Below, piece after piece: positions 15,402 to 58,978 of a stretch of DNA of 64,000 nt. Position 1 is the stretch's first letter, and the number at the start of each line of letters is the position of its first letter. The position numbers and the translations under genes are program-made. The notes beneath the pieces are model-generated. The model made no database searches, was not told the origin of the DNA, and was given only the letters and a program-made list of their open reading frames with translations. This DNA is from Verrucomicrobium sp. GAS474 (GTDB lineage Bacteria > Verrucomicrobiota > Verrucomicrobiia > Methylacidiphilales > GAS474): NCBI RefSeq assembly GCF_900105685.1, contig NZ_LT629781.1, positions 2,542,001 through 2,606,000 on the forward strand. The letters run 5' to 3'.

Positions 15402-15476
<75 letters not shown>

Positions 15477-19466: not shown

Positions 19467-22400
19467 CTAACGGCCTCTGCCGAGATCCCGGTCGATCTCG
19501 CCGGGGCGGGGAGGAAGGGGCTGCTCCCGCTCGTGGGCGTGGCCGTGGTAGAACCCGAGCTGGGGCGCGCGATCCACCTTCTCGCCACGGTGCGGTTGAG
19601 GGATGACCGCGTCACGGACCTCGCCGAGCACCTTGAGCCCCGCCGAGAGGGACGTCTGCCGCCGATCCGAGAAGAGCGACAGGACGCGGCCCGCCATCGT
19701 GACGCCCCTGATGAGCTTCTCGATGCGATTGCCCTTGCCCGTAACGGGGCGCGATGCCTTTGCGTGCTCCGCCTGCAGCTTCGCGATCTTCTTCTCGAGC
19801 GCCTCCCTCTTGTCCATCTCCCGTTCCAGCATCTTCAGGCGATTGATGTCCCGAACGAGACGACGGTGCTTCGGCGCCTTCTGCGACGGTGGGAGCTTCT
19901 TGTAGGCTTCGACCTCCTTCTCGACCTCCGGTGCGAGGGCTTTGAACTCCTTCTCCGCCATCCGAAGCCTGTGGTGTTCGTTCATGAGCTCGCGGGCGCT
20001 CAACCGCGTCGCCGTCTGCGTGACCCAGTCATTGAGACCGTGTTCGTCGCCCTTGCCTTCCAGCGAAGGGGTGTAGATCCACACGTCCGTCCGGTGCCGC
20101 GTCGACGAAACGTAGAACGCGTTTCGCGTTAGGGCCTTGCTCCGATAGCCATAAGCCATGAAGGCCGCATCAACGGTTCGCCCCTGGGAGGCGTGAGAGG
20201 TAAAGGCGTAGCCGTGCTCGAAGGTCCTGAAGGTCGGGGGAATCCTCAGCTCCTTGGTCTTCCCTTCGCGGCGCATCCAGATCGTCCCGTCCGCCTCGAC
20301 CCGACTGACGATGCCCACCATACCGTTCCGCAGGCCGAGCTCCTTGTCCTGCGCGCGAATCCAGAGCCGCTCCCCGACCGCGATATTCATCTTCCGCCGC
20401 TCCGAGATCGAGATGCGCTCCGATTGCTTAAGCGTGAAGAGGCCGTAGTCGAATTTCAGGGTCTCGCCCGTGACCATGTTTCGAAGGTCGAGCATCTGCC
20501 CCTCGCGTCCCTCGATCAGCCAGCGTCCCCGTTTCAGCGGGAGATCGTTGCCGTTCACGGTGAGGACGTGGCTGCGTTCCTTCTCGATCCGATTCCAATT
20601 GAGGCGCTCCGCCTTCGTATCCCGCAGGAGCCGCTCCGCCAAGACCGTCACGTCGTCGCCCGACAGGACGCCCCGCCCCCGCAGCTCGTCCCGAACGTAG
20701 CTCGTGACCTCGTCGATCTCCTTCCAGGTCGGCGAGACGATAAGCGCCGAGCGGGGCTTGCCGTTCTCCTTGATCGTCAGGATCGTGTCGACGTAGTGCT
20801 TCGAGAGCGCCGTGTATCGCGCCTCGTTATTCTGTTCCTCGATTACCCGCCCGAGCTTCTTGTAAATCGCGAGCGCCTTTACCGGTTGGTGCGCCGCCGC
20901 GAGTTGCGCCGCCTCCCGCAACTCCTCCGTCTGCTGACGATTGATCTTCTGAAGCTCCGAGATCCTGATCCCCGACTCCTGCTCGAGGATGCGGAGAGCG
21001 TCCCCCGCCGGAACCGAGGTGTGCTGCCGAATATCCCCGACCAGGGCGATCCGACAGCCCTTCTCCTTGCACAGTGCGAGAAGCTGTTCCATGTCCCGCG
21101 CCCCGACGAGGCCCGCCTCGTCGAGAATCACGTAATCGCCCTCGCCGAGGGCTTCCTGAGCCTTCTTGTTCTTGAGGAGCCCCTGCATCGTCCCGGTCCG
21201 AGCGAACGGATCGCCGGGAGCGAGGGACTCGCCCCGGAGATCCTGAACGGCGGTGGCGGAGGGAGCGAAGAGGTGAACCGTCACTCCCGCCTTCGTCAGG
21301 CCGTCGACCGCAGTCAGCAGGGCCGAGCTCTTCCCCGTGCCCGCCAAGCCCCGCAGCACGACGGCGAAGTCCGTCGACTGCCAGAGGTGCCGGACCGCGT
21401 CCCGCTGCTCCGCGGTCAAATCGAACCGGCCGCCGACGTCGCGGGTCGGAATCGGTGTGGAGAGGGAGATAGGGGCGAGCATCGCGCCGAGGCCCTCGCG
21501 CGCCAGGGCGATCATCGAGTTCTCGATCTTGAGCATCTCCAACGTCGTCATGAGAGAGTGCCCTTTGTAGGAGAGGAGCTGTCCCGTCTCCTTCATGATC
21601 ATGATCTCCTCCTTCAGGTGGTCCGCCTCGACCCGACCGATGCTGTTCGCCAAGATCCACGCCACGAGCTCGTGCTCCGAGAAGACGGAATTCCGTTCCG
21701 TAAAGTGAGCGATACCGAGTTGAAGGGCGTGTAGGGGACGAACCTGAGCGTAGGGTTCGAGAGGGCCGCCCGTGGTCGCCATTGTGTAGAGGCGCTCCAA
21801 ATCGCCGCGCTGTTCCGGCGTCAGGCGTTCGAGCTGCCCCTGCCGAATCTCCTCCGGCGTGAAGGGTTTGCCGTCGCGAACCCACTTGCTCTCCCGTGAG
21901 CCGACGACGATGCCCTTCTTTTCCTTCCATGTGAGCTCCCGCTCCAACTCCTCCTCTCGGCGCGCGATCTCAGCCTTGATAAGCTGCCCCCGTTTTGAGA
22001 ACTCCTCGCAGAGCGCCGTCGAGATACCCCGGATCGAGACCTCTCCCTTCGTGTCGACGTCGATTTCCCAGCCGAGCCTCCGAAGTTCGACGGCCAAGAC
22101 GTTGTTGAAGTGAACGCCTGCCCGTTCGAGCGCCCCATCCTTGAACATGAGCCCATTCTCCAGGGCAAACCACTCACCCGTCACCGGGTCGCGGCTCATG
22201 TTCCAAAATATGTTATGGACGTGAAGGTTCGGATCAATGGCTCCATCCACCGGCCGGGCCTCGGCGTGAAGATACGAAGCACCGATGACCTGCCCAGGCA
22301 CCTTGCGGCACGCGCCCCACGTTCCGTCTTGGACCCGGATAGCGGCCTGCGAGATGAGGAACTCCCGCGACTCATTCGCAGCCTTGAGGACAGCCTCCAT

Positions 22401-22742
22401 GATCCGCTTGTCCCCCGCCACCCGGCACGCAATGGAGACGCTCTTATGCGGAGAGCACGTGACGTCGAAGGCGGCCCTTCTGTCTTTGCGCGCCCGCTGG
22501 AAGAGCGGCTTCCCGGTCAACGGGTGGATGCCCTGGCCGAGCTTGCGAAAGGCGTCCGGCGTCAGCCCCGCAGGCCCCAAGAGCTCGCGGCAGAGGTCGC
22601 CGAAGACGCCATGGGTCGGCAAGTGATCGTGCCCTCGGACGGTGCCTTCGATGTGGTAGTCACCGCTAAGGAGGTGATCGACGAGGTACTCTTCCAGGTC
22701 ATCGACGTTCTTGAACCAGACGGCGGGTTTGTAAGCGCTCAT
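19467..22742 (-). CDS. MobF-family conjugative relaxase-helicase (TrwC/TraI-like)
   Basis: A 1091-residue protein that would nick oriT, bind the strand covalently and unwind it. The N-terminal relaxase shows candidate catalytic Tyr20 and Tyr29, the DVTCSPHKSVS strand (93-103) and the three-His metal site (YLHAEARP near 157-164 and DPNLHVHNIF near 170-179). The helicase half has Walker A GLAGTGKS (465-472) and Walker B VILDEAG (538-544), then further SF1 motifs and a C-terminal coiled coil. This is the usual MobF order and length. It starts the minus-strand mobilisation operon. Confidence 0.93.
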   Translation of the reverse strand: MSAYKPAVWFKNVDDLEEYLVDHLLSGDYHIEGTVRGHDHLPTHGVFGDLCRELLGPAGLTPDAFRKLGQGIHPLTGKPLFQRARKDRRAAFDVTCSPHKSVSIACRVAGDKRIMEAVLKAANESREFLISQAAIRVQDGTWGACRKVPGQVIGASYLHAEARPVDGAIDPNLHVHNIFWNMSRDPVTGEWFALENGLMFKDGALERAGVHFNNVLAVELRRLGWEIDVDTKGEVSIRGISTALCEEFSKRGQLIKAEIARREEELERELTWKEKKGIVVGSRESKWVRDGKPFTPEEIRQGQLERLTPEQRGDLERLYTMATTGGPLEPYAQVRPLHALQLGIAHFTERNSVFSEHELVAWILANSIGRVEADHLKEEIMIMKETGQLLSYKGHSLMTTLEMLKIENSMIALAREGLGAMLAPISLSTPIPTRDVGGRFDLTAEQRDAVRHLWQSTDFAVVLRGLAGTGKSSALLTAVDGLTKAGVTVHLFAPSATAVQDLRGESLAPGDPFARTGTMQGLLKNKKAQEALGEGDYVILDEAGLVGARDMEQLLALCKEKGCRIALVGDIRQHTSVPAGDALRILEQESGIRISELQKINRQQTEELREAAQLAAAHQPVKALAIYKKLGRVIEEQNNEARYTALSKHYVDTILTIKENGKPRSALIVSPTWKEIDEVTSYVRDELRGRGVLSGDDVTVLAERLLRDTKAERLNWNRIEKERSHVLTVNGNDLPLKRGRWLIEGREGQMLDLRNMVTGETLKFDYGLFTLKQSERISISERRKMNIAVGERLWIRAQDKELGLRNGMVGIVSRVEADGTIWMRREGKTKELRIPPTFRTFEHGYAFTSHASQGRTVDAAFMAYGYRSKALTRNAFYVSSTRHRTDVWIYTPSLEGKGDEHGLNDWVTQTATRLSARELMNEHHRLRMAEKEFKALAPEVEKEVEAYKKLPPSQKAPKHRRLVRDINRLKMLEREMDKREALEKKIAKLQAEHAKASRPVTGKGNRIEKLIRGVTMAGRVLSLFSDRRQTSLSAGLKVLGEVRDAVIPQPHRGEKVDRAPQLGFYHGHAHEREQPLPPRPGEIDRDLGRGR

Positions 22743-23573: not shown

Positions 23574-24050
23574 ATGAGCAACCAGCAACCCAAGGGGCCG
23601 AAGAGCCCAGCGCAGCTCATGCAGGAGCTCGAAGCCGAGGCCGTTGACTACGGCGTCGGGAAGCTCGCTCCCTATACCGAGGCCATCGTCTACATGGTTC
23701 GGAAGAAGAGGATGAAGTACCGGGCGATCGCGGCTCGGTTGAACGAGGACGTCTTCTCCCGCATGGAGCCGAAGGTCGTAAAGAAAGACGGGCGCGAGCA
23801 GCTGGTGAAGTGGTCGTGCAACGCTTCCGAGGTTCGCCGTCACTTCAATGCTAAGTCCCATCTCTTCGATGGTGTCCCTTCGGACCCTGCGGCGCCCCCC
23901 ACCACCGGGGCAGGGGAGGGAACGGCTTCTCCGACCAAGCTGAAGCTCGATGGTATAGAGGGCGCATTCAAGGATCGTCCAAAAGGCAATACGGCCGAAG
24001 ACAAGGCCCGTATCGGCAAGCAAGCCAGCAAACACGGTCGCCTCAGCTAA
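23574..24050 (+). CDS. Small HTH-like protein, copy 1
   Basis: A 158-residue protein. Residues 25-100 contain a helical HTH-like core (YTEAIVYMVRKKRMKYRAIAARLNED, then NASEVRRHF), and the C-terminal third is Pro/Gly/Thr-rich and disordered. The core is shared with the 78-residue protein at 32008-32244, which has YREIAAMFVED and HTEVRLFH at matching places. It opens the plus-strand operon directly after the inverted repeat, so it is a candidate oriT-binding or autoregulatory protein. AAGGTCC precedes the ATG. Confidence 0.6.
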   Translation: MSNQQPKGPKSPAQLMQELEAEAVDYGVGKLAPYTEAIVYMVRKKRMKYRAIAARLNEDVFSRMEPKVVKKDGREQLVKWSCNASEVRRHFNAKSHLFDGVPSDPAAPPTTGAGEGTASPTKLKLDGIEGAFKDRPKGNTAEDKARIGKQASKHGRLS

Positions 24051-25000: not shown

Positions 25001-25909
25001 ATGACCGAAGAAAGCAATCAGAACGAAGCCTCCACCGACAACTCCACGATCGAGCACGTCCTCGTCGTCACTGACGCCCCGAAGGGCGGCGTGGGGAAGT
25101 CCGAATTCACAAACCACCTCACTTCGACGTTCCGCGCCATCGGCCTAGACACCTACATCGGGTACGACACGGACGGCAAGGCGCGGGTCTCGAAGGACCG
25201 CGACGACCGCTTCCGGTTGATCGACGTGACCGCCCTGAATGACAAGGACGCCGTCACCGAGCTCTCCCAGATGCTGGGGGCGCTGGGAACGGCTCCCGTC
25301 GTCGTGGTCGATCCCATGGCGCACCACGAGGCGCTCCTCCGCGATCTCTTCGAGAGGCAGCACGTCTTCGACCTCCGGCTGCCGAAGGTCAACGGCGCAG
25401 CCACGATCCTCGTATTCCCCGGCAGCGATGCCGACACGGTGTCCCAGGCCGCCGACGCCGTGAACTACTACCGGCGCAACCACTGCGGCCGGGACCACCG
25501 GGACGTGCGGATCGTGGCGGTCCTGAACGGCCATCTCAGCAAGGGCTTCGAGTTCTGGCAGGGGATCGAGGAGTCGGAACTGGTCGACGCCACCGTTGTC
25601 CTCCCGCAGCTCTCCCAGAAGGTTCGGGACGAGATCATCGTGGCTGCCCAGGAGATGGGGCGCCCGGCGCGCTTCGACGAGCTGATCCGCTCCGAGGACC
25701 CGATCCTCTCGCTGACGGCGCGGATGTTCACGGAGGACTACGTGCTGGGGGTGCGTCGCCAGATCCTCCGGAACGCCCACTTCTTCATGCCGACGGACCT
25801 CGCCGAGCAGGTCATGAAGGCCGTCCCCGCCGAGCCCACGCCCGCCGAGGTCCGCACCGGCTCGCAGATCCGGGGCTCCGTGAAGTTCGCCAAAAAGGAG
25901 CGGATCTAA
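25001..25909 (+). CDS. ParA/VirC1-like ATPase
   Basis: A 302-residue protein with the deviant Walker A KGGVGKS (28-34) of the ParA/MinD family, a switch region (VVVVDPMAHH near 103-112) and the expected alpha/beta fold. In conjugative systems such ATPases (VirC1, TraL) bring the relaxosome to the coupling protein at the membrane. Here it lies upstream of the coupling-like ATPase and is coupled by TAATG to a tail-anchored partner, which fits that role. A partition role for the replicating element is an alternative. Confidence 0.78.
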   Translation: MTEESNQNEASTDNSTIEHVLVVTDAPKGGVGKSEFTNHLTSTFRAIGLDTYIGYDTDGKARVSKDRDDRFRLIDVTALNDKDAVTELSQMLGALGTAPVVVVDPMAHHEALLRDLFERQHVFDLRLPKVNGAATILVFPGSDADTVSQAADAVNYYRRNHCGRDHRDVRIVAVLNGHLSKGFEFWQGIEESELVDATVVLPQLSQKVRDEIIVAAQEMGRPARFDELIRSEDPILSLTARMFTEDYVLGVRRQILRNAHFFMPTDLAEQVMKAVPAEPTPAEVRTGSQIRGSVKFAKKERI

Positions 25910-26592
25910 TGGGCATCGACGGCATCACCAGCCTGCCCACGTCCGGCACGACGGCGTCGCCCACCGCCGTCCCTGCCTCGGCGGGGACGGTGCGGGAAAC
26001 CGCACATGCGAGCCCTACCACCATGAGCAAATCCTCCGACATCTGGACGGATTTCATCCTCCGCAGCGTCCCCGCCGACCAGCAGGCCCGCGTCTTGGAG
26101 CTCTGGCGCGAGGCGGACCTCGAACCGAACAGCGTGTTCGGCCGCTTCCTTTTCGCCTGCCGGGTGACGTCCGGGGCGAACAGCAGCTTTGCCGCCGAGG
26201 TCACGGAAGCCGCTCGGCAGAACACCGCATCGGCCCAGGCCCTTCGCGTCGAAATCAACCGGGCGACGAGCGAGTTCCGGGAGGCCTTCATCTCGCTGCA
26301 ATCCGAGGTTCGGAAGCAGTCGCAATCATCCAACCAGCTCCTGAAAGCGATGCACGACGCTCGCTTCGACGAGTTGACCGACAAGCTGCAGGGGCTCGCG
26401 TCCGCTTTGGAGGTGGCTTCGATCACCCGCCCGCCCGCGGCTCCCGCCGATCCCATCCTCATCGCCGAGGTGAAAGCTCTCCGCGCCGACGTGAAGCGCC
26501 TCCGGGCGGCGGGACGGGATTGGTGGAAGACGGCCGTCGTCACCGTCCTTCTCGTCGGCGCCGCTTTCGCGCTCGGCCACCTCACTCACTGA
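25909..26592 (+). CDS. Tail-anchored coiled-coil protein
   Basis: A 227-residue protein whose first 40 residues are Pro/Thr/Ala-rich. A central coiled coil follows (EFREAFISLQSEVRKQSQSS and further), and a single C-terminal membrane helix (WWKTAVVTVLLVGAAFALGHL) ends it. The ATG overlaps the stop of the ParA-like gene in TAATG. The ATPase plus membrane-anchored coiled-coil pair suggests recruitment of the ATPase to the membrane. A start at 26023 (MSKSSDIW) is also possible. Confidence 0.6.
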   Translation: MGIDGITSLPTSGTTASPTAVPASAGTVRETAHASPTTMSKSSDIWTDFILRSVPADQQARVLELWREADLEPNSVFGRFLFACRVTSGANSSFAAEVTEAARQNTASAQALRVEINRATSEFREAFISLQSEVRKQSQSSNQLLKAMHDARFDELTDKLQGLASALEVASITRPPAAPADPILIAEVKALRADVKRLRAAGRDWWKTAVVTVLLVGAAFALGHLTH

Positions 26593-26649: not shown

Positions 26650-28512
26650 ATGAAGCTCATTCACCTCCTCCAGAAGCTGGTCCAGTCCGTCCTCGATCTC
26701 TTTGATGGTCGCCCTCGCGCCGAGAAGGAGTGGCGCGCCAAGAACCCCGACTATCCCGACAACCTCCCGTTCCCGTTGACCGATGACGGCACGGCCCTCC
26801 TCCCGCGAACCCGTGTCCTCCGGAACACGAGATCGAGCGGTTACTCGGTAGTCGAGTTCCCGGAGGACGTCCCGCTCGGTTGGCGGCCGCCGAAGGGCTG
26901 GAAGATCGTCGCTGCCGAGATGCTCAACGCCGAAGACCACGGGGCCGTTCGGGTTCCAGGGCAACGCCTTGAGTCCTATCCGATGGACATGGCGCTCTTC
27001 AACTGGGACGGCACGCCGTTGGCCTTCGGCGCGAACAAGACAGCAATGCTCATTCAGCATCTCTTCGAGAACATCTTCGCCTGGGGGAAAACGGGTTCCG
27101 GCAAGACCTCCGGTACCGGACGGCGCGTCTGGGGCTCCTGCTGCCGCTTCGGTCTCGGCCTTCTCGGTCTGGCCGTTAAAATGGACGAGCCCGCAGAACT
27201 CCTCCGGCAGGCTTTGGCCGAAGGACGGCAGCTCCGTCCCAATAAAGTCGAGGACCAACGACCCAACGACATCCGGATGTTCGGGCCGGACCATGGCGAA
27301 CGCTTCAACTTCGCCTCCTATCATGGCTTCCTGACGAACCGGATGGGCACGACTGCCGAGACGGTCGAGGTCCTCAATACGATCATTGGGATCGCGAAGG
27401 GGAATAGCGCCGATGTGTCGAAGCACGATTTCTGGGCCGAGCAACGTGGGCTGATGCTACAGAACGCGATCGACATTGTCCGCCACCGTCCCCACGGCGA
27501 GATCAAGCTCGAGGAGATCATGCAGTTGATCGATGCCGCGCCCACGAAGGCTGGCGTCGTCAATCGGGAGTCGGTCCTCGATCGGTGGGGTGTTGAGGCT
27601 CTGCAGCACGTCTGCACCTCGGAAGAGCTCCGTCGCCGCTTCGAGGGCGAGGTGCTGGCAGCTCGACGCTACTGGCAGGAAACCTACCCGAGCATGGAGG
27701 CCAAGACGCGTAATGACTGCCTCGCCACCATCCGCGGTTTCGTCGACGGGATGAACCGGCAGCCCATTCGCGACCTCTTCTGCACGACCACCACCGTCAC
27801 GCCGAACGACATCTTCGATGGCGCTGTCGTGATCATCGACATGCCGGTCCACGCGGACCGAGCCACCAACGTCCTCGCGAACGCAATCTGGAAGGTCATG
27901 ACCCAGTACGGCGCCATGCAGAGGAAGATGCCGGTGAAGAAGGAGGAGCGGGACAAGGTGCTTCCCTGCCTGATCTATGCCGACGAGGCCCACTTCCTTG
28001 CCGCAGAGAAGGACAGCGAGTACCTCAGCGTGATGCGGTCCTACCGCGTCGGGACGTGCTTCCTGAGCCAGAACGCCCCCGAATATCGCCGTCACCTCGG
28101 TGGCGGGAAGGACGGGGTCGACCGAATGCTGGGGCTGCTCGGCAACTGCGGAACGACGATCCTTCACGCCAACAGCTGCAGCGAGACCTACCGCATCTAC
28201 AACGAGCAGTTCGGCAACGAGATCGCCTGGATGAAGGGCGAGAGCATGGGCTTCTCGTTGGGCGGCCTCGTCGGCGGCCTTACCGGTGATGGAGACAAGG
28301 GTGCCATCGGCGCCCTCGAGGGCGTCAATGTCGGGGACAGCCGCAGCCAGCAGATGCAGCCGGTCCTCAAGCAGACGGACATCCTCTCCCTCCGGAACGG
28401 CAGCGACGCTCACGGTGCCATTGCCGACGGCATCTGGATTCACGGCGGTGAGATCCTGCCCAACGGCAAGCCGTGGATGAAGTTCACGATCAACCGTGGC
28501 GACGACTTCTAA
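26650..28512 (+). CDS. Coupling-protein-like (TraD/TrwB-type) ATPase without membrane helices
   Basis: A 620-residue ATPase with Walker A WGKTGSGKT (145-153) and Walker B LIYADEAHFL (441-450), plus VVIIDMPV and a late C-terminal GSDAHGAIADGIWIHGG, matching the T4CP/TraD-TrwB fold that links relaxosome to transfer channel. Unlike typical T4CPs it shows no N-terminal membrane helices. The next two genes encode membrane proteins that could supply the anchor. A VirB4/HerA-type motor is a less likely alternative. Confidence 0.72.
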   Translation: MKLIHLLQKLVQSVLDLFDGRPRAEKEWRAKNPDYPDNLPFPLTDDGTALLPRTRVLRNTRSSGYSVVEFPEDVPLGWRPPKGWKIVAAEMLNAEDHGAVRVPGQRLESYPMDMALFNWDGTPLAFGANKTAMLIQHLFENIFAWGKTGSGKTSGTGRRVWGSCCRFGLGLLGLAVKMDEPAELLRQALAEGRQLRPNKVEDQRPNDIRMFGPDHGERFNFASYHGFLTNRMGTTAETVEVLNTIIGIAKGNSADVSKHDFWAEQRGLMLQNAIDIVRHRPHGEIKLEEIMQLIDAAPTKAGVVNRESVLDRWGVEALQHVCTSEELRRRFEGEVLAARRYWQETYPSMEAKTRNDCLATIRGFVDGMNRQPIRDLFCTTTTVTPNDIFDGAVVIIDMPVHADRATNVLANAIWKVMTQYGAMQRKMPVKKEERDKVLPCLIYADEAHFLAAEKDSEYLSVMRSYRVGTCFLSQNAPEYRRHLGGGKDGVDRMLGLLGNCGTTILHANSCSETYRIYNEQFGNEIAWMKGESMGFSLGGLVGGLTGDGDKGAIGALEGVNVGDSRSQQMQPVLKQTDILSLRNGSDAHGAIADGIWIHGGEILPNGKPWMKFTINRGDDF

Positions 28513-28563
28513 CCAATCAGTTTCGGAAAACAACAACCCATACACAAAAGGAAAATCAGCACT

Positions 28564-29490
28564 ATGACTGCAAACGCTCCCATCATGACGGCGACGATCC
28601 GAGGGGGTCGCCCGTTCCAGATCGACAAACGCTTCTGGGGCTACGCCGCCCTCAGCGCCTCCATCATCCCCATTACCCTCGCGCTCGCGTGGCTCGTCTT
28701 CCCCGGACTGGGGTTGATGCTCCCGAGCGTGGAGGGGACGTTCCGGGACTCGCCCCAGCTCTCCGCCGACGAGCTGGCGGGCTTCCGCAGCCAGCAGGAC
28801 GGGAACCAGCTCAACCACATCTGGTATGCCGTCGTCAGCTACGACGGCATTCGGCAGTACACCCCGTTTAACGACGATACCCTGACGACAATGGGGGTAT
28901 CGGAGGGCATGACGAATCGTCAGGTCGGTCAGGCGGCCGTGACCTACATCAATCGCCGATACGCGGCGGGCTCCCTCACCCGGGCCGAACTGCGGGAGGC
29001 GAAGATCATGACCGATTACGCCGCCGGGGTGGCAGGGGTGATCGAAACCACGAAGTCCTTCAAGCACTACGCCGCCAAACACGCGGCGGAAGGGAAGGAT
29101 GCCTACCGGGCCGCCGTTCTCCTTTGGCGTTGGAGCCAGTCGGCCGATAACCCCGCGCCGACCCGAATGGCCTACCAGCCGCCCGTCGTTCGCGAACAGG
29201 CGTCCGCCGCTCCCATTGCCTCAAACAGTCAGGCTGCCGCCGCCCAGATGCCGCAAGACGTCTCCGTTGAGGCGCAGGCTCCCGACGCGAAGGCCCGTCT
29301 CGCTTCGATCATACCCCGAACGGCGATCCAGTTGCGTCGGCAGTTCGTGCCGTTTGTCCAGTGGCGGCAGGTCAACGCCCAGTCGGATACCCACAAACTC
29401 CTCGATGGCCTGCGGCGCCGGGACCGCGTCACCAACGCCGAGGTCGACCAATTGATTCAGCTGACCCGGATCATGGAGGCCGCCAAGTAA
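28564..29490 (+). CDS. Single-pass membrane protein of the transfer operon
   Basis: A 308-residue protein with one N-terminal membrane helix (YAALSASIIPITLALAWLVFPGLGLML, about 23-50) and an extracytoplasmic or cytoplasmic helical body, rich in Ala and Arg late (RQFVPFVQWRQVNAQ). No family recognised. It follows the coupling-like ATPase by 51 bp. Its order suggests a membrane partner of that ATPase. Confidence 0.6.
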   Translation: MTANAPIMTATIRGGRPFQIDKRFWGYAALSASIIPITLALAWLVFPGLGLMLPSVEGTFRDSPQLSADELAGFRSQQDGNQLNHIWYAVVSYDGIRQYTPFNDDTLTTMGVSEGMTNRQVGQAAVTYINRRYAAGSLTRAELREAKIMTDYAAGVAGVIETTKSFKHYAAKHAAEGKDAYRAAVLLWRWSQSADNPAPTRMAYQPPVVREQASAAPIASNSQAAAAQMPQDVSVEAQAPDAKARLASIIPRTAIQLRRQFVPFVQWRQVNAQSDTHKLLDGLRRRDRVTNAEVDQLIQLTRIMEAAK

Positions 29491-29521
29491 ACAATCCCCA
29501 ACCAACCCAAGAAAAAAATAT

Positions 29522-30496
29522 ATGTCTCAAGACCAAAACGACAACGGCTTCGGCAACGCCGCAATGCAGAACGCATCCCAGAAGATCACCAAGGAGGAGA
29601 AGCTTCTCACTCTGCTGATCGTCTGCTCGCTGGCCTTCTGCCGCAATGCGGCCGTCATGGCGGTGGGCCTCGGCTTGATCGGCCTCGCCTCGGGATTCGT
29701 CATCAGCCAGCTCACGAAGCCCGTGGAGGATCTCTACTGGTCGATCAAGGGCCTGTTCGATCCGGCGATGACGCGGGAGGTGTATCTCCAGCACGTCCAC
29801 GGCCAGTGGGGCGGCTACTGGGCCTTCCCGTTCCTCGTCGGCGCGTCCCTCATCGCTTGGGGCATCTGGGCGAACCGGGCCGGTATCCGGTCGCATCTGA
29901 AGCAAGCGAGGAAGTTTGCGATCATCTATGTGGTCGTTTCCCTCATCGGTGCCTGCCTTATGGTGATTGACTTGGTCATCTCCAACGGAAGTAGCGTCGG
30001 TGGCCTTGTCGGTATCATCGTAGGCGTTGCTGCAGCCAGCTTCACCTTCCTCGCCGTCCCCGCTGCGGTGTTCGGCCTTCAACTCGTTCGATGGGCTGAT
30101 GCGAGTCACGCCGAGCACAAACACGTCCTTGGCGAGAAGGAAGCTGACGGGACCGAGAAAGCTTGGTTCTGGGGCGCTTTCACGATTCCTCAATGGGCGG
30201 TGCGGACCGGGAAGTGGATTGCGGTTGGCACGCCGGTCATCGCCGCATTCATCCCCCTCGCAGGGATGTTCCTCGGGTGGCGTCTGCCCTTCATCGAGTT
30301 CGGATCGACCGTCGTCATCACGATCCTGCTCTTCCTCTTCCTCGCCTCGGCCTCCGTTGGCTTCCGCCTCTGGCGCTACCTCCAGACCCGCTTCGAGGTT
30401 TGGGAGGCGACGGGCGAGAAGGAAGTCCTCGAAGGGCTGATCCCCATCGACGAGGCGAAGGAGACGAAGCACGCCCGGATCACCGCGACCCTCTAA
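29522..30496 (+). CDS. Polytopic membrane protein of the transfer operon
   Basis: A 324-residue protein with at least six hydrophobic segments (near 30-58, 95-113, 135-155, 160-190, 235-255 and 260-285) and charged termini. No family recognised; it is not an obvious VirB6 or DotA homologue. It starts 31 bp after the single-pass protein. Together these two membrane proteins take the place where mating-pair or T4CP-anchoring genes would be expected. Confidence 0.6.
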   Translation: MSQDQNDNGFGNAAMQNASQKITKEEKLLTLLIVCSLAFCRNAAVMAVGLGLIGLASGFVISQLTKPVEDLYWSIKGLFDPAMTREVYLQHVHGQWGGYWAFPFLVGASLIAWGIWANRAGIRSHLKQARKFAIIYVVVSLIGACLMVIDLVISNGSSVGGLVGIIVGVAAASFTFLAVPAAVFGLQLVRWADASHAEHKHVLGEKEADGTEKAWFWGAFTIPQWAVRTGKWIAVGTPVIAAFIPLAGMFLGWRLPFIEFGSTVVITILLFLFLASASVGFRLWRYLQTRFEVWEATGEKEVLEGLIPIDEAKETKHARITATL

Positions 30497-30754: not shown

Positions 30755-31942
30755 ATGAACTCCGCCCTCATCCTCCTCCCCCCGACCATTCGCTCGAAAG
30801 GGTCCGCCCTGCGGTTCGCTCGGTATCTGCGCGACTTCGATCTCGTCGGCGCGATCTACGACGCATCCGGATTCACTGCCGCCGCCCAGAGCGGTTTCAA
30901 GGATGCGAGCGCGCTCAGCTTCGAGCCGCAGATCCGTTCCCTCGGCGCGGAGGTCGCGCGGCGGACGGAGAACAGGTCGTTTCTGTCCCCGGCTCTGCAT
31001 CGAAGGGTGCTCTGGCAGATGCTGGCTGGCCACCGCATCGTCCTTGTTCCCAACGCCACCGACTGGTCCTTGAGGATCGAGGAGGAGGGGATTGAGACCG
31101 AGACCATCCTCGACTGGGCCTCCTTCGTCGAGTTCGTCCAGGCCATCGCAGAAAGCCCTTCGATGGCGCCGACCGTAACCGAGGATGGAACCTTCAGCCC
31201 CAGGCTGGTGATTGCCATCGACAAACCCGACAACGTCTTCGGCATTCCTCCCATCGACCCCGTCGCCTTTTCGCAGCTCGACGAGAAGGGAAGGGAGCAG
31301 ATCCTGGGGGCCGTGATGGAGGTCTGTGCTGCGGTCGCTCCTATCATCCGAACGGCCGTCCTGCAGCCCGAGCCGACGATTGTCTGGCCCGAGGACCAGG
31401 ACTTCCTCTTCGAGGGGCGCACTCTCGGAGAAATCTACACGGACGCGATCTCGCTCCTGCCCTATCTCGACCTGTCGGCGAAGAGAATCTGGGAAATCGT
31501 TCAGCGCCTCGCCCCCCAAGGAGTGACCACCGTTCGCTCGTTGGGCGTAATTCTGCCCAAGGCCCACTCGATGGCGACCTACCATCCCGAAGGGAGTGGT
31601 GGCGTTGGCTTCGGGAAGGCGCTTCTCATGGACCGCCTTGGTATAGACGCCGACGAGATCGTCCGGAAGGTGAAGGACGATGCGGAGCTGACTGCCAATC
31701 TGACAACGGTTGGCGAGTCAGCACCGTCGGCGACCGAGGAGCGGCCCGCAGCGTCAGCCGCCGAAGGCGCAAAGAGTGTACCCTTTCCGATGTTCTCGAT
31801 CGACAAAGCCGCACGGGCTTTCGAGGGACTCGCGCCGTCCTCCGCCGAGGGACTGACGACCTCCAATGTGGATGCTCTCCGGGCAGGCGCGGCGCGGCGC
31901 CTCGCCGCGAGGGAGAAGGGTGGCGACGGATTGGCTAAATAA
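30755..31942 (+). CDS. Unrecognised 395-residue protein of the transfer operon
   Basis: A soluble alpha/beta protein beginning with TIRSKGSALRFARYLRDFDLVGAIYDASGF-like content (a motif like a toprim or receptor domain was considered and not supported). The core (about 1-290) has repeated short strand-helix units; the last 100 residues are Ala/Glu-rich and disordered, ending in a basic tail. No catalytic motif visible. It is the last long gene of the transfer operon and is probably co-expressed with the ATPase and membrane proteins. Confidence 0.55.
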   Translation: MNSALILLPPTIRSKGSALRFARYLRDFDLVGAIYDASGFTAAAQSGFKDASALSFEPQIRSLGAEVARRTENRSFLSPALHRRVLWQMLAGHRIVLVPNATDWSLRIEEEGIETETILDWASFVEFVQAIAESPSMAPTVTEDGTFSPRLVIAIDKPDNVFGIPPIDPVAFSQLDEKGREQILGAVMEVCAAVAPIIRTAVLQPEPTIVWPEDQDFLFEGRTLGEIYTDAISLLPYLDLSAKRIWEIVQRLAPQGVTTVRSLGVILPKAHSMATYHPEGSGGVGFGKALLMDRLGIDADEIVRKVKDDAELTANLTTVGESAPSATEERPAASAAEGAKSVPFPMFSIDKAARAFEGLAPSSAEGLTTSNVDALRAGAARRLAAREKGGDGLAK

Positions 31943-33604: not shown

Positions 33605-36600
33605 ATGATCTCCATCCTCACGTCTGTCCGGTCCGCCCTCGGTCGCTTCGATTGCATCGAATTCGCCGAGGAGCTCTGCACTGCGGTCCTCCTCTTGTTC
33701 CTCACCGCCTTCGCGTGGTGTCTGTTCGTCGCGACGGCAGCCGCGAACCCGACAGGCGCCGACGTCGTCTCGGGGACGGCATCCATCAGTAGCAATGGGA
33801 ACACCCTCAACATCGTCAACAGCAACGGAGCGATCATCAACTGGGGGAGCTTCTCCATCGGGGCAGGGGAGACGACCAACTTCCTCCAGCCGTCCAGTGC
33901 CAGCTCTGTTCTGAACCGTGTCGTAGGCAGCAACCTATCCGAGATCTACGGAACGCTGAGCTCCAACGGGAAGGTGTTCCTCATCAATCCCAACGGCGTA
34001 ATGATCGGCAGCACCGGCATCATCAACACAGCGGGCTTCCTCGCCAGCACGCTCGACGTCAGCAACGCGGACTTCCTCGCCAACAATGGCAGCGGGACGA
34101 TGCACTTCACCGGCAACGGCGGCGCCGGGATCACCAACTACGGAACGATCAAAGCCCTCGGAGGCAACGTGGTCCTAATGGCTGAACGGGTGACGAATGC
34201 CGGGACGATCTCGGCGACTGCTACCGCCAGCGGCAAGGGCGGGAACGTCGTCCTCGGCGGCGGGACCGACGTCTACCTGACCACGACCCAGAATGACGGA
34301 GCATACATCCGCGCGACCGGGAAGGGCCAGATCATCAACTCCGGGACCATCGACGCCGTCTCCGCGCGCCTCCAGGCGGCGGGGGGCAACGAATACGCCC
34401 TCGCGATCAACAACACGGGCACGATCAAGGCCACTGGCGTCGTCCGCCGCGGCGGGCATGTCTATCTTCTCTCGCCCGATTCCACGATCTCCAACTCCGG
34501 CTCAATCATCGCCAAGAAGGTAGACGGCAGCGGCGGCAAGATCTTGGCGAGCGGAGGCACAGCACTCAACTCCGGCATCCTCGACGCTAGCGCCTCGTCC
34601 GGCAAGGGCGGCAAGGTGACGATGCAGGGCAACTACGTTGCCCTCTACGACGGCGGCTCGATCTACGTTTCCGGCCCCTCGGGCGGTGGAACCGTCATGA
34701 TCGGCGGCGGCGCCCACGGTGCGGACCCTCACGTCCTGAACTCCCAAAGCACCTTCATCGGTTCCGGCTCCATCATCAATGCCGACGCCACGGTGAGAGG
34801 CAATGGTGGCACCGTCGCCGTCTGGAGCGACGGAACGACCCGCTTCTACGGTTCGATCTCGGCCAAGGGTGCGGGGGCTGGTCTCGGTGGCTGGGTCGAG
34901 ACGAGCGGCCATACCCTCGTCGCCCAGGGCTCTGTTGCTACGGGAGGCGGAACGTGGCTCCTCGATCCGAGCGACGTCGTCATTGGCGACGCCTACTCGG
35001 ACTCCGTCTCCTACGCGGATTCGACCAGCTACGACTTCTCGACGGCCTCCGACACCTCCTATATCTCCACCGGCTCACTCATGGCGGCGATGGCCGACAA
35101 CGACGTAGACGTAACGGCATCCGGCTCGATTCTTGTCGACGGAGCAACAGCTTCACTCACTGGCGGCCATACACTTAACCTGACGGCCCAAACCGGTGGG
35201 ATCACGATCCAGGGCTCGGATTTGGAAGGGGATTACAGCCTCGCAGCAATCGCAGGCGACGCGGTTACCATCACCGGTTCGACGATCAACTCCTCCGGGA
35301 CCGTGAGGCTCAGCGGAACGTCGGTATTCAGCGATTCGGATCTCTACGTCTCCGCCCTAAACCTGTCTGGTGCCTCCGTTGAGGTCGATGGGCAGATCAC
35401 CACTACTTCTGGTGCTCTATCGGTCACATCCACCGGGCCGGTGCTTTTTCAAGGCGTCAGCGCCACTGCGTCGTCCTCGGGAGGCACGGCCATTTCCATT
35501 GCGGCAGGCGGGCCGGTCGAGATCGATGGGGAGATCGACTACACCGGCAAGGCGAGCATCTCGACCACCAACGCCGACGTCACCCTCAACCACGACGTCA
35601 TCGGTGACGGGGATCTTTCAGTGTCTGCCCTGGGCTCTATTCGAGTCTCAAACGTCACTACCTCGCCGGGCAGTGTTTACCTCAATGCCGGGACAAACGT
35701 GACCATCGCCGGAAACGTGACGTCCGTCGCCTCGAGTGCCGCCCATGACGTTCTTAACGTGGTCGCCGGGGGAGATGTGGTCATCAACCTGAACAAGATC
35801 GTTGACGTCACCGGCTCAGTGACGATTCAGGCTGGGGATCGTCTGACCATTGCGGGAAGCAGTCTTATAGTCGAGGACGGGGCTCCCTATGGTTGGATCT
35901 CGAATCTTTCGATCTCCAGCCCGAACGGACTGGACGTCGCGTCTTCCTCTCGGGCGACCCATATCGCGAATAACGACCCGCTGGGTCAGGTAATCGTCAA
36001 CGTCGCCAACGGAACGCTTTCGATCACCAGTTCGGGCAGTTTGGTCTCAGGCATTTCAGCGGCCGGAGATCTGCTGCTGAACGCGCAGCAGCTCATGGTT
36101 CGAAGCGGCAATGTTGGCGCCGGTGGTAACGCCACGGTCAATATCGCGGGGGATGTTACGCTCACCGCCAATGGCAGCGCTTTTCCTGCAAGCATCTCGT
36201 CGGGCGGGCTCATGGACATCACCGCGGGCGGAACGATCAGCATGGGTGTCTGGACGGGCGTGTCAGGCGACAGTGGTGTTTCGATTTCCTCCGGCTCCGG
36301 CTTTGTCTGGAACTCCAATATCTCCCGGTGGACGTCAGTGACGTCGAGCAGCGGCGCCGTTAGTGTTTCGAGCGGGTCGGGCTTTTCGGGCACGAACCGG
36401 CTCGTCATCAATGCCGGGACAAACGTCCGTCTCTCTTCCGGGGGAGAGATCGACCTCGCCAACTCGTCGAACGGTGTTTCGGCGTTCACTGCGCCGACGA
36501 TGGCTGTCGGGGGGGAATCCGCGATTTATCTCAACGCCACGGACTATGCGGCGATCCTTCCGAATGGGTCTCAGCTCCTAACCGTCCAGGTCGGCGACTC

Positions 36601-37366
36601 GAGCAGCACCTATGGTACGGTTCCCGACCTCTCCGGCGTTTCGATAACCAGTACCGGTCTGACTGCGGGTGACACCCTCGCGGCCCTCGGCATTGGCGGC
36701 CTGACTACGACGGCCACCGCTTCCTCGCCGATTGGAACGTATGGAATTACCAGCAACATCGCATCGGGGACGGTCATTGGGAACTACCTCGTCTACTCCT
36801 TGGACGGCACGCTGACGCTGAGCGCCCCGCTCCCGACGCCTCCGCCTGTCGCTCCGGCCATCCTCTCAACAGCTACCATTGAGGTGCCGCGCATCCCCTT
36901 CCAGCAAGAAGGCATTCCCCTTCGGCTAGACCGGACCGACGTGGGCTATGAGGTCATCTATGCCAATCGTCCGGGCTCCCAGGAGATCGCCTCGGTTAAT
37001 GGCAACACCGTGAAGGTGATCTACAACGACTTCCGTCCAGCTAAGGGAACGCTGGTTGGGACCCACTGGACCCCTTCCGGCCGCGCCGTGGCAAAAGCTC
37101 AGACGCCGAGCGTCGTCGGTACTCCTGAACACCGCTTCGTCGTCAGGAACCCGGACGCCGATGAGATCGTGGTCGGGCAAGGCAATTACAAGATCTCCCA
37201 CGGCGCCGTCAGTCCCGCCACTGAAGCCGAGATGCCGAAGATGCGGATGGCGGAAACGCCGACTGCCTCCGTCCCTATCGCCCTGCCTCCATTCCAGCCA
37301 CACGGCGCGCGGGGCTTCGAGGATGACGCTCAGAACCCTGCGAAACTCGTCGGGGGATGGTGGTAG
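33605..37366 (+). CDS. Large filamentous-haemagglutinin (TPS) adhesin-like protein with an MBG-like domain
   Basis: A 1253-residue exported protein. After a hydrophobic signal segment (LLLFLTAFAWCLFVATAAANP) comes a TPS secretion domain (about 48-200, with NPNGVMIGSTGIINTAGFLAS), then long imperfect beta-helix repeats rich in Gly, Ser, Thr and Asn, an MBG-like domain (about 980-1080, SSTYGTVPDLSGVSITSTGL), and a Pro-rich C-terminal tail. Such proteins are surface adhesins moved by a TpsB partner. No TpsB gene was seen in the element. GC is slightly lower than neighbours. Cargo of the element. Confidence 0.8.
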   Translation: MISILTSVRSALGRFDCIEFAEELCTAVLLLFLTAFAWCLFVATAAANPTGADVVSGTASISSNGNTLNIVNSNGAIINWGSFSIGAGETTNFLQPSSASSVLNRVVGSNLSEIYGTLSSNGKVFLINPNGVMIGSTGIINTAGFLASTLDVSNADFLANNGSGTMHFTGNGGAGITNYGTIKALGGNVVLMAERVTNAGTISATATASGKGGNVVLGGGTDVYLTTTQNDGAYIRATGKGQIINSGTIDAVSARLQAAGGNEYALAINNTGTIKATGVVRRGGHVYLLSPDSTISNSGSIIAKKVDGSGGKILASGGTALNSGILDASASSGKGGKVTMQGNYVALYDGGSIYVSGPSGGGTVMIGGGAHGADPHVLNSQSTFIGSGSIINADATVRGNGGTVAVWSDGTTRFYGSISAKGAGAGLGGWVETSGHTLVAQGSVATGGGTWLLDPSDVVIGDAYSDSVSYADSTSYDFSTASDTSYISTGSLMAAMADNDVDVTASGSILVDGATASLTGGHTLNLTAQTGGITIQGSDLEGDYSLAAIAGDAVTITGSTINSSGTVRLSGTSVFSDSDLYVSALNLSGASVEVDGQITTTSGALSVTSTGPVLFQGVSATASSSGGTAISIAAGGPVEIDGEIDYTGKASISTTNADVTLNHDVIGDGDLSVSALGSIRVSNVTTSPGSVYLNAGTNVTIAGNVTSVASSAAHDVLNVVAGGDVVINLNKIVDVTGSVTIQAGDRLTIAGSSLIVEDGAPYGWISNLSISSPNGLDVASSSRATHIANNDPLGQVIVNVANGTLSITSSGSLVSGISAAGDLLLNAQQLMVRSGNVGAGGNATVNIAGDVTLTANGSAFPASISSGGLMDITAGGTISMGVWTGVSGDSGVSISSGSGFVWNSNISRWTSVTSSSGAVSVSSGSGFSGTNRLVINAGTNVRLSSGGEIDLANSSNGVSAFTAPTMAVGGESAIYLNATDYAAILPNGSQLLTVQVGDSSSTYGTVPDLSGVSITSTGLTAGDTLAALGIGGLTTTATASSPIGTYGITSNIASGTVIGNYLVYSLDGTLTLSAPLPTPPPVAPAILSTATIEVPRIPFQQEGIPLRLDRTDVGYEVIYANRPGSQEIASVNGNTVKVIYNDFRPAKGTLVGTHWTPSGRAVAKAQTPSVVGTPEHRFVVRNPDADEIVVGQGNYKISHGAVSPATEAEMPKMRMAETPTASVPIALPPFQPHGARGFEDDAQNPAKLVGGWW

Positions 37367-44651: not shown

Positions 44652-45020
44652 ATGATACCTGGGCTCCTTGAACTCCCGTTCCTCGTCGCCCAGATCCCTG
44701 CGGGGTTCCCGTCCCCGGCTGATGATTACAGGGAAGAGCCGCTTAATATTCAGCAGCTCGTCACGCGGAACCCGCTTGCCACCTTCTTCGTTCGCGCCCA
44801 TACGCACGCTCTCCCCAGCCGCGGGATCGAACTGGGCGATCTCCTCGTCATCGACCGCTCCCGCACGCCGTCGCCGGGGCAGGTGATCCTCGCCGTCGAG
44901 GACGGAGAGATCCGTCTCCGCGAAATGCCGTCGAGCGGTGAGATCGAGGTGTGGGGCCTCGTCACCTACACGCTCAAGGAACTGACCAACGCGTATGTTC
45001 GCCCTCATCGACTGCAATAA
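44652..45020 (+). CDS. umuD: UmuD-like polymerase V subunit lacking the catalytic dyad
   Basis: A 122-residue S24/UmuD-type protein. It keeps the self-cleavage site (Ala17-Gly18 in [12 protein letters not shown]) and the fold motif GDLLVIDRS. Where UmuD has GDSM with its catalytic Ser, this protein has THAL (Ala53), and the catalytic Lys position aligns to Arg90 in GEIRLREM. It therefore probably cannot cleave itself. It overlaps umuC by 26 bases. The ATG at 44652 is the only fitting start and gives an almost leaderless mRNA. Confidence 0.8.
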
Positions 45021-46236
45021 TTTCTACGCTTCCTGTGAGCGGGTCTTCTCCCCAAAGCTCAACGGGAAGGCTGTCGTTGTCCTCAGCAACAACGACGGAT
45101 GCGTGATTGCCCGTTCCAACGAGGCGAAGGCCCTCGGCGTCGAGATGGGCGCCCCGTTCTTCAAGGAGAGGGAGCGCCTTGAGAAGAACGGCGTTGAGGT
45201 CTTTTCCAGCAACTACGAGCTCTACAGCGACATGTCGCGCCGGGTCATGGGCACCCTTGCCTTGTTCTCGGGGGAGATCGAGGTCTACTCCATCGACGAG
45301 GCGTTTCTTCGCCTCACCTTGGCCCCGGACCGCCTCCGCGATCACGCTACCGAGATCCGGGCGACCGTGAAGCAGTGGACTGGCATTCCCGTATGTGTGG
45401 GAATTGCCACAACAAAGGTCCTAGCCAAGCTCTCCAACCGCTTTGCCAAAAAGAACGCCGGGACCGGTGGGACCCACTTTCAGGCCGCACCCACCGAAGA
45501 GTTCCTCTCTCGCTTCGACGTGGAAGACGTCTGGGGCGTCGGCGGCCGTTGGGGGGAACGGCTGAATGCCGGAGGCATCAAGACGGCGTGGCAGCTTCAC
45601 GAGGCGAACCAGAGCTGGATTCGCGCCGAGTTCGGCGTGGTCCTGCTGCGTATCGTCTACGAGCTCCGGGGCGTCTCCTGCCTTTCGCTTGAGGAAGTGG
45701 CCCAAGACAAGAAGGGCATCGTCTCTTCCCGTTCCTTCTCTCGCTCCGTTACCGACATCGACGAACTCCGGCAAGCGGTCCGCGACTACCTGTCGACCGC
45801 AGCCGAGAAGCTCAGGAGCCAGGCGTCCGTCGCCGGCCGGGTGCAGGTCCATATCCTGACGGCCCGCCACGGCGACAAGCCGAAGTATTCCAACGCCGCC
45901 GAAGGCGAGCTCGACGAGCCGACCGACGACACCGCCACTCTGATCCGCCGCGCCATGCCGCTCCTCGATGCGATCTACCGGGAAGGCTTCGAGTATCGAA
46001 AGGCCGGGGTTTACCTCACCTCGATCTCTCCCGCCTCCCTGATCCAGCGCGACCTCTTCGGCGTGCCCATCGAGAAGAGCGAAAAGCAAAAGACGCTCAT
46101 GGCCGTGATGGACCAGCTCAACCGGAACGGGCGCCGGGTCCACTTCGGGGACGCCGGACGGAAAGGGTGGACGATGAAGCGTGGACGCCGGAGCCAGTCG
46201 TTTACAACGGACTGGAAAGACCTTTTGTCGGTTTAG
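44995..46236 (+). CDS. umuC: Y-family DNA polymerase, UmuC-like
   Basis: A 413-residue translesion polymerase: metal-binding Asp in [17 protein letters not shown], then YSIDEAFL with the second acidic pair, the palm [11 protein letters not shown] region, thumb HhH ([14 protein letters not shown]) and a little-finger domain. With UmuD' it forms polymerase V for damage tolerance. The gene starts inside the umuD-like reading frame. Mobile elements often carry umuDC (rumAB, mucAB). Confidence 0.93.
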
Positions 46237-47820: not shown

Positions 47821-48723
47821 TTAAAATAATCTTGTGGGACGGGGCTTGCGCTCCGGGAGTCCGAGCATCCGCCGCAGTTCCTTGGCGGCCTTCGGGGCAT
47901 AGTCCTTGTCGTTGTTGTTCGCCGCGACACGGACCTGCCTCGCATTCCCCTTCAGCTTCTCGACCCGTTGGACGATGCCCCGCAGCTCGTCCTCACCGTA
48001 TTGCCAGCTGAACCGCTCGGCGACGGTCCTCCCCTGAACGAAGCCAGTGGCGTTCCGGCCGTGGAGACGGAGGTAGGCGAGATCGGGGTTCGTGACGTAG
48101 TCGAGAGCGGGCATGGCGATGGCGTCCTCAATGTCCGGGGTGTCGACCCCTACGAGCGTAGCTCGGTAATCGGAGAGGAAGTCGATGGTGTGCTGGGCGG
48201 TTTCGCCCTCTAGCCAGCCCTTGTTCCGCAGCTCCACCGCGAGCGGCAGAGGAGACAGGTCCTCGAGCAAACCCTCCAGCTCCGTCAGCCGATGCCGGTT
48301 GGGGACGAAGGAGGGGGCAAGCTGAAGGAGAAAGGCCCCGAACTTGCCTGCCTCGATGACAGGGGCGAACTGCTCTTTCGTCCAGAGGACGAGATCCCGC
48401 TCCAGCTCACGGTCGATACGGACCGGAGACTTCAATCCGTGGCCCTTGGGCCGGATCGAGGGGGGCAACGTCTCCACCAGGGCGTTATGCCGGGAGAGCG
48501 CCTTGTGGAGCTTGGCGTCGAAAAGGAAGTCGTCCGGGGTCTGCTCCACCCACTTCGCCACATTCCTTCGCTCAGGCACCGCATAGAAGCTGGAGTTCAC
48601 TTCGACATAGTCGAAATTCTCTGAATACCACCGGAGGCGCTCCTCAGCGCGCACCTCCTTCGGATACCAATGCTTGATGAACTCAGGGTCGAGCCATGAG
48701 GAGCAGCCAACGCGGATCATCAT
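47821..48723 (-). CDS. DUF72 protein (YecE-like)
   Basis: A 300-residue TIM-barrel-like DUF72 protein: IRVGCSSWLDPEF, FDYVEVNSSFYAVP, VELRNKGW and YLRLHGRNA. The family is widespread, with suggested nuclease or glycosidase-like folds, but its reaction is unknown. Its ATG overlaps the stop of the upstream gene (ATGA). It is an accessory cargo in the element. Confidence 0.88.
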   Translation of the reverse strand: MMIRVGCSSWLDPEFIKHWYPKEVRAEERLRWYSENFDYVEVNSSFYAVPERRNVAKWVEQTPDDFLFDAKLHKALSRHNALVETLPPSIRPKGHGLKSPVRIDRELERDLVLWTKEQFAPVIEAGKFGAFLLQLAPSFVPNRHRLTELEGLLEDLSPLPLAVELRNKGWLEGETAQHTIDFLSDYRATLVGVDTPDIEDAIAMPALDYVTNPDLAYLRLHGRNATGFVQGRTVAERFSWQYGEDELRGIVQRVEKLKGNARQVRVAANNNDKDYAPKAAKELRRMLGLPERKPRPTRLF

Positions 48724-50508: not shown

Positions 50509-51375
50509 ATGAACTTTCTTGAGCAGACGGGACTCCGTCCATTCGAACCCGAGAGCGACGCCCAAGAATTCGTCGACGTACTGTCGTTGGCAGCGGTCCG
50601 CTTGCGGATGGTTTTTGAAACGGAACGTGAATGCGTTATCCTAGCCATAGGCTCGGGCTGTTTCGTTAAGATCGGGGAAAAAGCCTACCTTTTAACCGCC
50701 CTCCACAATCTCACCGGAAAAGAACCGGACACCGGCAAATACAAGCACTCCAAGGGCGGTGGTCCTAACTTGGTTGTCATGGACGGCGCCTTCGGGACAG
50801 TGGTGGAAAAGCTCTACACGGGAGAGAACTGCCAGTACAACAACTCCCCTCGATTCTATCAGCATAGCGAAGGGCCGACTGTGGATGTGACGTTGCTTCC
50901 GGTCGAATTTCCGGAGCGAGCGACCTGCTACGACGAACTGCTGCTGAGCGATAATCTGCGAGTGAACGCGGTGCCGACTGCAATTTCAGGGCTCTGCTAC
51001 ATCATCGGCTTCCCGCAGGGTCTGGCCCACTATCATCGACAGAAGGTCCTTCCCATCTGGAAGATGGCGCACATCGCCTCCGAGCCAACCTTGAATTTCA
51101 ACGAGGAGCCGCTCTTCCTCGTCGACGCCGTTACGCGCCCCGGCCTGTCAGGCGCTCCGGTCGTCGTGCACAAACAGGTGAAGGGGCAGGCCCGGGAGCA
51201 TCGTCTGCTCGGGATCTACGTCGGGCGGTTCGTGTTCAAACCGGACGCGAACGTGAAGAAGAAGGGAAAAAAGAAAAAGGCTCGTCCCGAGATCGACCCT
51301 GCTGAGTACCTTGGGATAGGCCGGGTGATAAAAACCTACGTGATTCGGCAGATCGCCGATGAAAATAATCTCTAG
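50509..51375 (+). CDS. Trypsin-like serine protease domain protein
   Basis: A 288-residue protein with the chymotrypsin-fold triad visible: His in YLLTALHNL, Asp in TVDVTLLPV and Ser in RPGLSGAPVVV. The last segment is Lys-rich (KKKGKKKKARPE). There is no signal peptide, so it is probably cytoplasmic. Trypsin-like domains without export signals occur in bacterial antiphage systems. It lies after an RHH regulator and before the REase-PIN protein, suggesting one functional cassette. Confidence 0.75.
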   Translation: MNFLEQTGLRPFEPESDAQEFVDVLSLAAVRLRMVFETERECVILAIGSGCFVKIGEKAYLLTALHNLTGKEPDTGKYKHSKGGGPNLVVMDGAFGTVVEKLYTGENCQYNNSPRFYQHSEGPTVDVTLLPVEFPERATCYDELLLSDNLRVNAVPTAISGLCYIIGFPQGLAHYHRQKVLPIWKMAHIASEPTLNFNEEPLFLVDAVTRPGLSGAPVVVHKQVKGQAREHRLLGIYVGRFVFKPDANVKKKGKKKKARPEIDPAEYLGIGRVIKTYVIRQIADENNL

Positions 51376-58930: not shown

Positions 58931-58978
58931 TGACTCTTAATCAATTGGTTGTAGGTTCAAGTCCTACTCGCGGCACTT
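58931..58978 (+). repeat. attR core repeat
   Basis: Identical to 15429-15476. It includes the tRNA-Lys 3' half only, with no acceptor 5' strand or D arm, so it is not a functional tRNA. Beyond it, chromosomal sequence resumes. Confidence 0.95.

Follow-up and report, generated by a model that had tools for sequence, protein, structure and literature searches.

How does a coupling protein that lacks membrane helices obtain its place at the membrane? This question is raised by the gene at 26650-28512 (plus strand, 620 residues) in a 64,000 nt stretch of the Verrucomicrobium sp. GAS474 chromosome (contig NZ_LT629781.1, positions 2,542,001 to 2,606,000), which is called the window here and to which coordinates refer unless stated otherwise. 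The gene is part of a 43.5 kb integrated element (15429-58978) whose gene content fits an integrative mobilizable element (IME) best. An earlier note on this DNA had described a coupling-protein-like ATPase, followed by genes for two membrane proteins, and had proposed either a split coupling protein with its membrane part encoded separately or a different motor. We consider it reasonably probable that the ATPase is the coupling protein of the IME, which would dock the relaxosome on the type IV secretion system (T4SS) of a helper, with the membrane part supplied in trans.

The open reading frame (ORF) of the ATPase shows coding-like codon use. The Walker A motif GKTGSGKT occupies residues 146-153, and the Walker B residues D445-E446 are invariant across 71 aligned sequences (the window protein and 70 relatives); the earlier note had called both motifs typical of TraD/TrwB. 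An AlphaFold (AF2) model (predicted local distance difference test score, pLDDT, 82; helical insert at residues 235-368) had TrwB as its best structural match in VIA-align (Z 25.8, root-mean-square deviation 3.6, 372 of 427 residues), with lower Z values for VirB4 (22.8), DotL (21.8) and HerA (21.7). Foldseek matched the model to Cag-beta and TrwB. The protein's own Pfam match, to TraG-D_C, reached 19 bits, below the cut-off of 22, and a match to VirD4-like CD1115 reached 25 bits. Across the family TraG-D_C was matched by 70 of the 71 members, TrwB_AAD_bind by 67 and T4SS-DNA_transf by 33, and a PDB search with the family profile found DotL (E 7.5e-7). The linkage to a relaxase by which type IV coupling proteins (T4CPs) are recognised was also found, as a MOBF (TrwC-type) relaxase with a helicase domain is encoded nearby (19467-22742, minus strand, 1091 residues). 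TrwB of R388, which has the same motor fold and works with a MOBF relaxase, differs from the window protein by its N-terminal helices and its cognate T4SS.

HerA and FtsK have this fold as well, which would be compatible with a different motor of the HerA/FtsK type, acting in repair, packaging or defence. However, TrwB outranked both HerA and VirB4, nearly all relatives match TrwB_AAD_bind, the relaxase is close by, and the PADLOC defence families gave no match at E 0.01 for the ATPase or for the products of genes 25001, 25909, 28564, 29522 and 30755. We rejected this second proposal of the earlier note as highly improbable and concluded from fold and family evidence that 26650-28512 encodes a T4CP.

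Membrane helices were assigned by hydropathy scans throughout. No membrane helix was found in the 26650 protein, as no 19-residue segment reached a Kyte-Doolittle value of 1.6. The highest value (1.23) belongs to residues 160-178 within the NTPase core, and the best segment beginning ahead of residue 126 reached only 0.77, which bears out the earlier statement that an N-terminal hydrophobic helix is missing. The protein lacks the N-terminal membrane helices (at least two) that define the VirD4 type and shares the lack of any transmembrane domain (TMD) with the TMD-less T4CP subfamily of the pIP501 TraJ type. Because relatives on plasmids and in many phyla are likewise without N-terminal helices, the absence of an anchor is more than chance: among the relatives with an identifiable Walker A motif, such a helix was found in 0 of 79 at a Kyte-Doolittle threshold of 1.6 and in 1 of 79 at 1.4.

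The N terminus allows a reading in which no anchor encoded by the element is needed: residues 2-19 would form an amphipathic helix that binds the membrane peripherally, the protein would dock directly on the helper T4SS in this form, and the membrane genes would act elsewhere. Indeed, no other 18 residues of the protein are as amphipathic (moment 0.66), this segment was modelled as a helix (block pLDDT 84), and some relatives have no multi-helix neighbour. On the other hand, Walker A starts at residue 38 (median) in the relatives, so that most of them begin near this motif and do not have the amphipathic helix, and in most of them the next gene encodes a multi-helix protein. We regard a motor that dispenses with an anchor as unlikely.

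Scanning genomes with the family profile yielded 210 confirmed stretches, and the 80 best of these were used as loci; L020, L025 and L052 were dropped from the 80, as they contained no usable ATPase ORF. T4CP-like ATPases of the family were also present on plasmids of Skermanella, Nitrosospira, a planctomycete, Runella and Roseibium, together with relaxases of MOBF, MOBP or MOBQ type. No T4SS operon is annotated in the displayed stretches of these plasmids; MOB-suite labels the Nitrosospira plasmid MPF_T. Among the 85 loci in which the ATPase was identified, some of them on short stretches, relaxase matches were of MOBF in 37 cases and of MOBP/MOBQ type in 19, while 29 had none on the stretch; one MobA/MobL query was missing from this search, and L004, whose record has a MobA/MobL annotation, is counted among the 29.

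Gene order pointed to a separate membrane part. In 53 of 76 loci the product of the same-strand gene that follows the ATPase gene has two or more helices, compared to 80 of 952 more distant genes; for the same-strand gene before the ATPase (position -1) the count was 1 of 51. When genes were permuted within loci, none of 10,000 trials reached the observed next-gene count, and this was the case at three thresholds. The spacing between the ATPase gene and its partner is short, the commonest gap being -3, a 4-bp overlap. BLAST linked 46 of the partners, from several phyla, into a group A3 and 10 partners from Pseudomonadota into a group A4. A3 and A4 show no detectable relationship although they occupy the same position, and in the tree A4 stands in the place of A3 in one Pseudomonadota clade, one apparent partner exchange. 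No Pfam family is common to the A3 members. A model of an A3 partner (pLDDT 91) gave no Foldseek match in the PDB at E ≤ 0.001 and no Z ≥ 5 among 48 chains, which is no demonstration of a new fold. The order is conserved across motors that are only about 25-30% identical, and a functional pair is therefore indicated. For the family, conserved position and helix content strongly suggest that the membrane protein encoded next serves as the coupling protein's membrane part.

We also compared these loci with those of anchored T4CPs. A multi-helix neighbour was present in 54 of 86 rows with a T4CP free of membrane helices, in 1 of 19 rows of a sister family with N-terminal helices, sampled from the same phylum as the window, and in 0 of 14 rows of relatives with C-terminal helices. 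After removal of near-copies at 70% identity the counts were 34 of 57, 1 of 12 and 0 of 7. Fisher's test of a cis anchor versus a downstream membrane gene gave p 4e-10 for the 119 rows and 2.9e-5 for the 76 rows at 70% identity. The rows exclude ORFs that are shorter than 400 residues, have no recognisable Walker A motif or have no neighbour on the stretch, and a few places occur in them more than once (e.g., L100 and L150). The counts are no more than suggestive of mutual exclusion between an anchor in cis and a membrane gene downstream.

Other solutions among the relatives are helices fused to the N- or C-terminus of the T4CP. T4CPs with one to four C-terminal helices were seen in L002, L003, L046, L100, L101, L104, L105, L108, L109 and L112; VirB10-like genes are also present in L002 and L046, and a VirB4-like one in L046. 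Three loci from Opitutaceae (L015, L024, L081) have two T4CP-like ORFs among large co-directed genes, with no conserved partner, and possibly belong to another system.

In the window itself, the T4CP gene is followed on the same strand by its operon neighbour 28564-29490, which encodes a 308-residue protein with one N-proximal membrane helix, and by 29522-30496, which encodes a 324-residue protein with six predicted membrane helices, the helix numbers expected from the earlier note. Neither protein has a family match. The three genes are collinear, with spacings of 51 and 31 bp. 29522 fits the partner role by its place in the operon and its helix number, and on position it is the leading candidate for a membrane partner. 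The split coupling protein proposed earlier is supported at the level of the family by the next-gene counts, while for 28564 and 29522 it is backed by position, with no likeness to A3 or A4. We consider the split arrangement right in kind and plausible in detail, though unproven for these two genes.

Several observations weigh against a membrane part supplied in trans. The window pair has no detectable likeness to the partner families, and the window T4CP is an outlier in the tree, with a terminal branch of 2.98 (median 0.48) and no supported sister. In 25 of the 86 rows without membrane helices in the T4CP, the next gene is not a multi-helix one and the first two genes after the ATPase give no match to a partner family; these rows include the plasmids K2D, Runella pSP2_3 and Skermanella pSM-4. 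Phylogenetic pairing of the anchored and anchor-free T4CPs left 5 usable independent pairs (p = 1), a number at which the contrast has no power. The C-terminal helices of relatives were considered as a fused partner ("Rosetta stone"), and this idea was dropped, as they have no likeness to A3, A4 or A5. Likeness to A3 or A4 in other frames of the window was not convincing. Searches for homologs of 28564 and 29522 in plasmids and viral contigs gave nothing useful; the same was true of 28564 in 60 related genomes and of 29522 in 288 genomes of the phylum, where two matches (E 6e-4) covered short stretches.

The element that carries these genes is bounded by an exact 48-bp tRNA-Lys repeat. The left copy (15429-15476, plus strand) overlaps the 3' part of tRNA-Lys (15402-15474), and the right copy (58931-58978, plus strand) is exact and adjoined by a gene for a tyrosine integrase (57437-58876, minus strand). 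P-loops among the called genes were those of the relaxase, the T4CP and one likely chance match. With queries from the same genome no VirB4- or VirB10-like genes were found among the called genes; divergent pore genes could escape such a search. Like other IMEs, the element has an integrase, att repeats in a tRNA gene and its own relaxase, and no mating pore of its own was found. For the origin of transfer (oriT), the repeats listed between 22650 and 23600 included none that was convincing, and scans for promoters and terminators were not clearly above chance.

A second MOBF relaxase is encoded at about 715 kb of the same chromosome and is 31% identical over the aligned region to the relaxase of the element. 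It is adjoined by genes for a T4CP with an N-terminal helix, a ParA-like protein and a VirB4-like protein (weak Pfam matches) and by a TrbI/VirB10 gene (5.8e-21), and a tyrosine integrase gene lies about 33 kb beyond this region. In agreement with the split arrangement, the gene that follows this resident, anchored T4CP is not a membrane gene. Whole-genome searches with PF03135 and PF19044 had missed the VirB4 of the second element, and the view that the genome has no T4SS was dropped when a sub-threshold PF11130 match led to the VirB4-like and TrbI/VirB10 genes. With its own T4SS genes, the second MOBF element is likely a conjugative element, and it may possibly be a helper for the element in the window. 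The region (chromosome 705001-765000, L157-L159) also contains putative RND-type efflux genes, recognised by size and helix count only, and, beside the relaxase and T4CP, a gene for a 1714-residue protein with weak methylase and helicase matches (L124:1467-6611).

In another reading, 28564 and 29522 would not anchor the coupling protein but would modify or replace parts of a helper's mating pore, or would be exclusion proteins, in the manner of SGI1 TraG or TrbJ/TrbL of the IncP island. In size and number of helices they would be compatible with VirB8-like and VirB6-like proteins, and islands with few pore subunits are known (PMC5704250). However, neither protein matched the Pfam families TrbL or VirB8, and no likeness was found to the six-helix protein encoded in the operon of the resident T4SS or to other proteins of that region. 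This is a weak test, since the candidate VirB6 of the resident operon has no Pfam match either. We judge such a role in the pore somewhat unlikely.

A relaxase and a T4CP without a pore could also be the relics of a conjugative element that has decayed, losing the genes for its pore. Against this, all three genes from 26650 to 30496 are open, and the pairing of relaxase and T4CP recurs across phyla. The resident VirB4, used as a query against the 88 related loci, matched only in L046; in this single-sequence search distant VirB4s may be missed. Decay appears improbable to us.

Upstream of the T4CP gene, on the same strand, 25001-25909 encodes a ParA-like ATPase (KGGVGKS) with weak similarity to the product of the ParA-like gene beside the T4CP of the second MOBF element, and 25909-26592, directly 5' of the T4CP gene, encodes a 227-residue protein with a C-terminal membrane helix. 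This tail-anchored protein was considered as the anchor and rejected: its positional counterpart adjoins a T4CP that already has a helix at the N terminus, which speaks against the role, but the two proteins show no detectable homology. Gene 23574-24050 (plus strand, 158 residues), with weak local likeness to its counterpart, may encode an accessory DNA-binding protein of the divergent operon. Further downstream, 30755-31942 (plus strand) encodes a 395-residue protein without family assignment. Other genes of the element are those for a haemagglutinin-like protein with a two-partner secretion (TPS) domain (33605-37366, 1253 residues), shortly after the mobilization region, a UmuC-like polymerase (44995-46236), a DUF72 protein (47821-48723), a trypsin-like protein matching the candidate defence family PDC-S45 (50509-51375) and a DUF3987 protein adjoining the integrase (54616-56775).

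The favoured reading, a coupling protein with its membrane part in trans, would work as follows. The element would excise, and the relaxase would then nick oriT. The hexameric motor without membrane helices would dock the relaxosome on a helper T4SS, perhaps that of the second MOBF element. Other T4CPs carry their membrane part in cis; here it would come in trans from a separately encoded protein. In the relatives this role would fall to the conserved multi-helix protein encoded after the motor, and in the window most likely to 29522, with 28564 as a possible accessory.

A separate motor and membrane partner as such is already described for TraJ and TraI of pIP501. T4CPs that lack a TMD and have a membrane partner are recognised as a subfamily, whose mode of oligomerization is stated as unknown (PMC7434980), and TraI is the proposed membrane anchor of the TMD-less TraJ (PMC9083827, PMC12857230). 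By description, the window locus resembles pIP501 in its motor free of membrane helices, with a small membrane protein encoded separately as putative anchor (PMC7434980, PMC9083827, PMC12857230). In contrast, pIP501 is a conjugative plasmid of Gram-positive bacteria and encodes its own T4SS, whereas the window T4CP is on a mobilizable element with a MOBF relaxase and putative partner genes of no known family. In the R27-type TraG-TraJ pair, the T4CP is adjacent to a membrane protein of about 200 residues with up to five helices, resembling the partners of the relatives (PMC7434980), but TraG, unlike the 26650 protein, is itself a membrane protein. CloDF13 is likewise a mobilizable element with its own T4CP, MobB, but has a MOBC relaxase; the TMD is essential in TrwB and MobB, and MobB with its TMD deleted is inactive in mobilization (PMC7431656). 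The consulted part of a 2017 review of IMEs names no canonical MobF IME and reports an own VirD4 T4CP only with MobC (PMC5704250). In the literature searched, in which subscription journals are thinly covered, we found no description of a relaxase-linked, T4SS-free family of TMD-less T4CPs in diderm phyla.

Tentatively, the family may represent a modular coupling protein spread across many phyla, in which a soluble TrwB-like motor is combined with an exchangeable membrane subunit (A3, A4 and perhaps a third type in the window). If this is true, the exchangeable subunit would allow the motor to be fitted, element by element, to the pores of different helpers. Since the motor and the putative membrane part are encoded by separate genes in a widespread family, the anchor role can be tested by deletion and swapping of genes. 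The T4CP family without membrane helices may also serve as a marker for mobilizable elements in phyla in which conjugation has been little studied.

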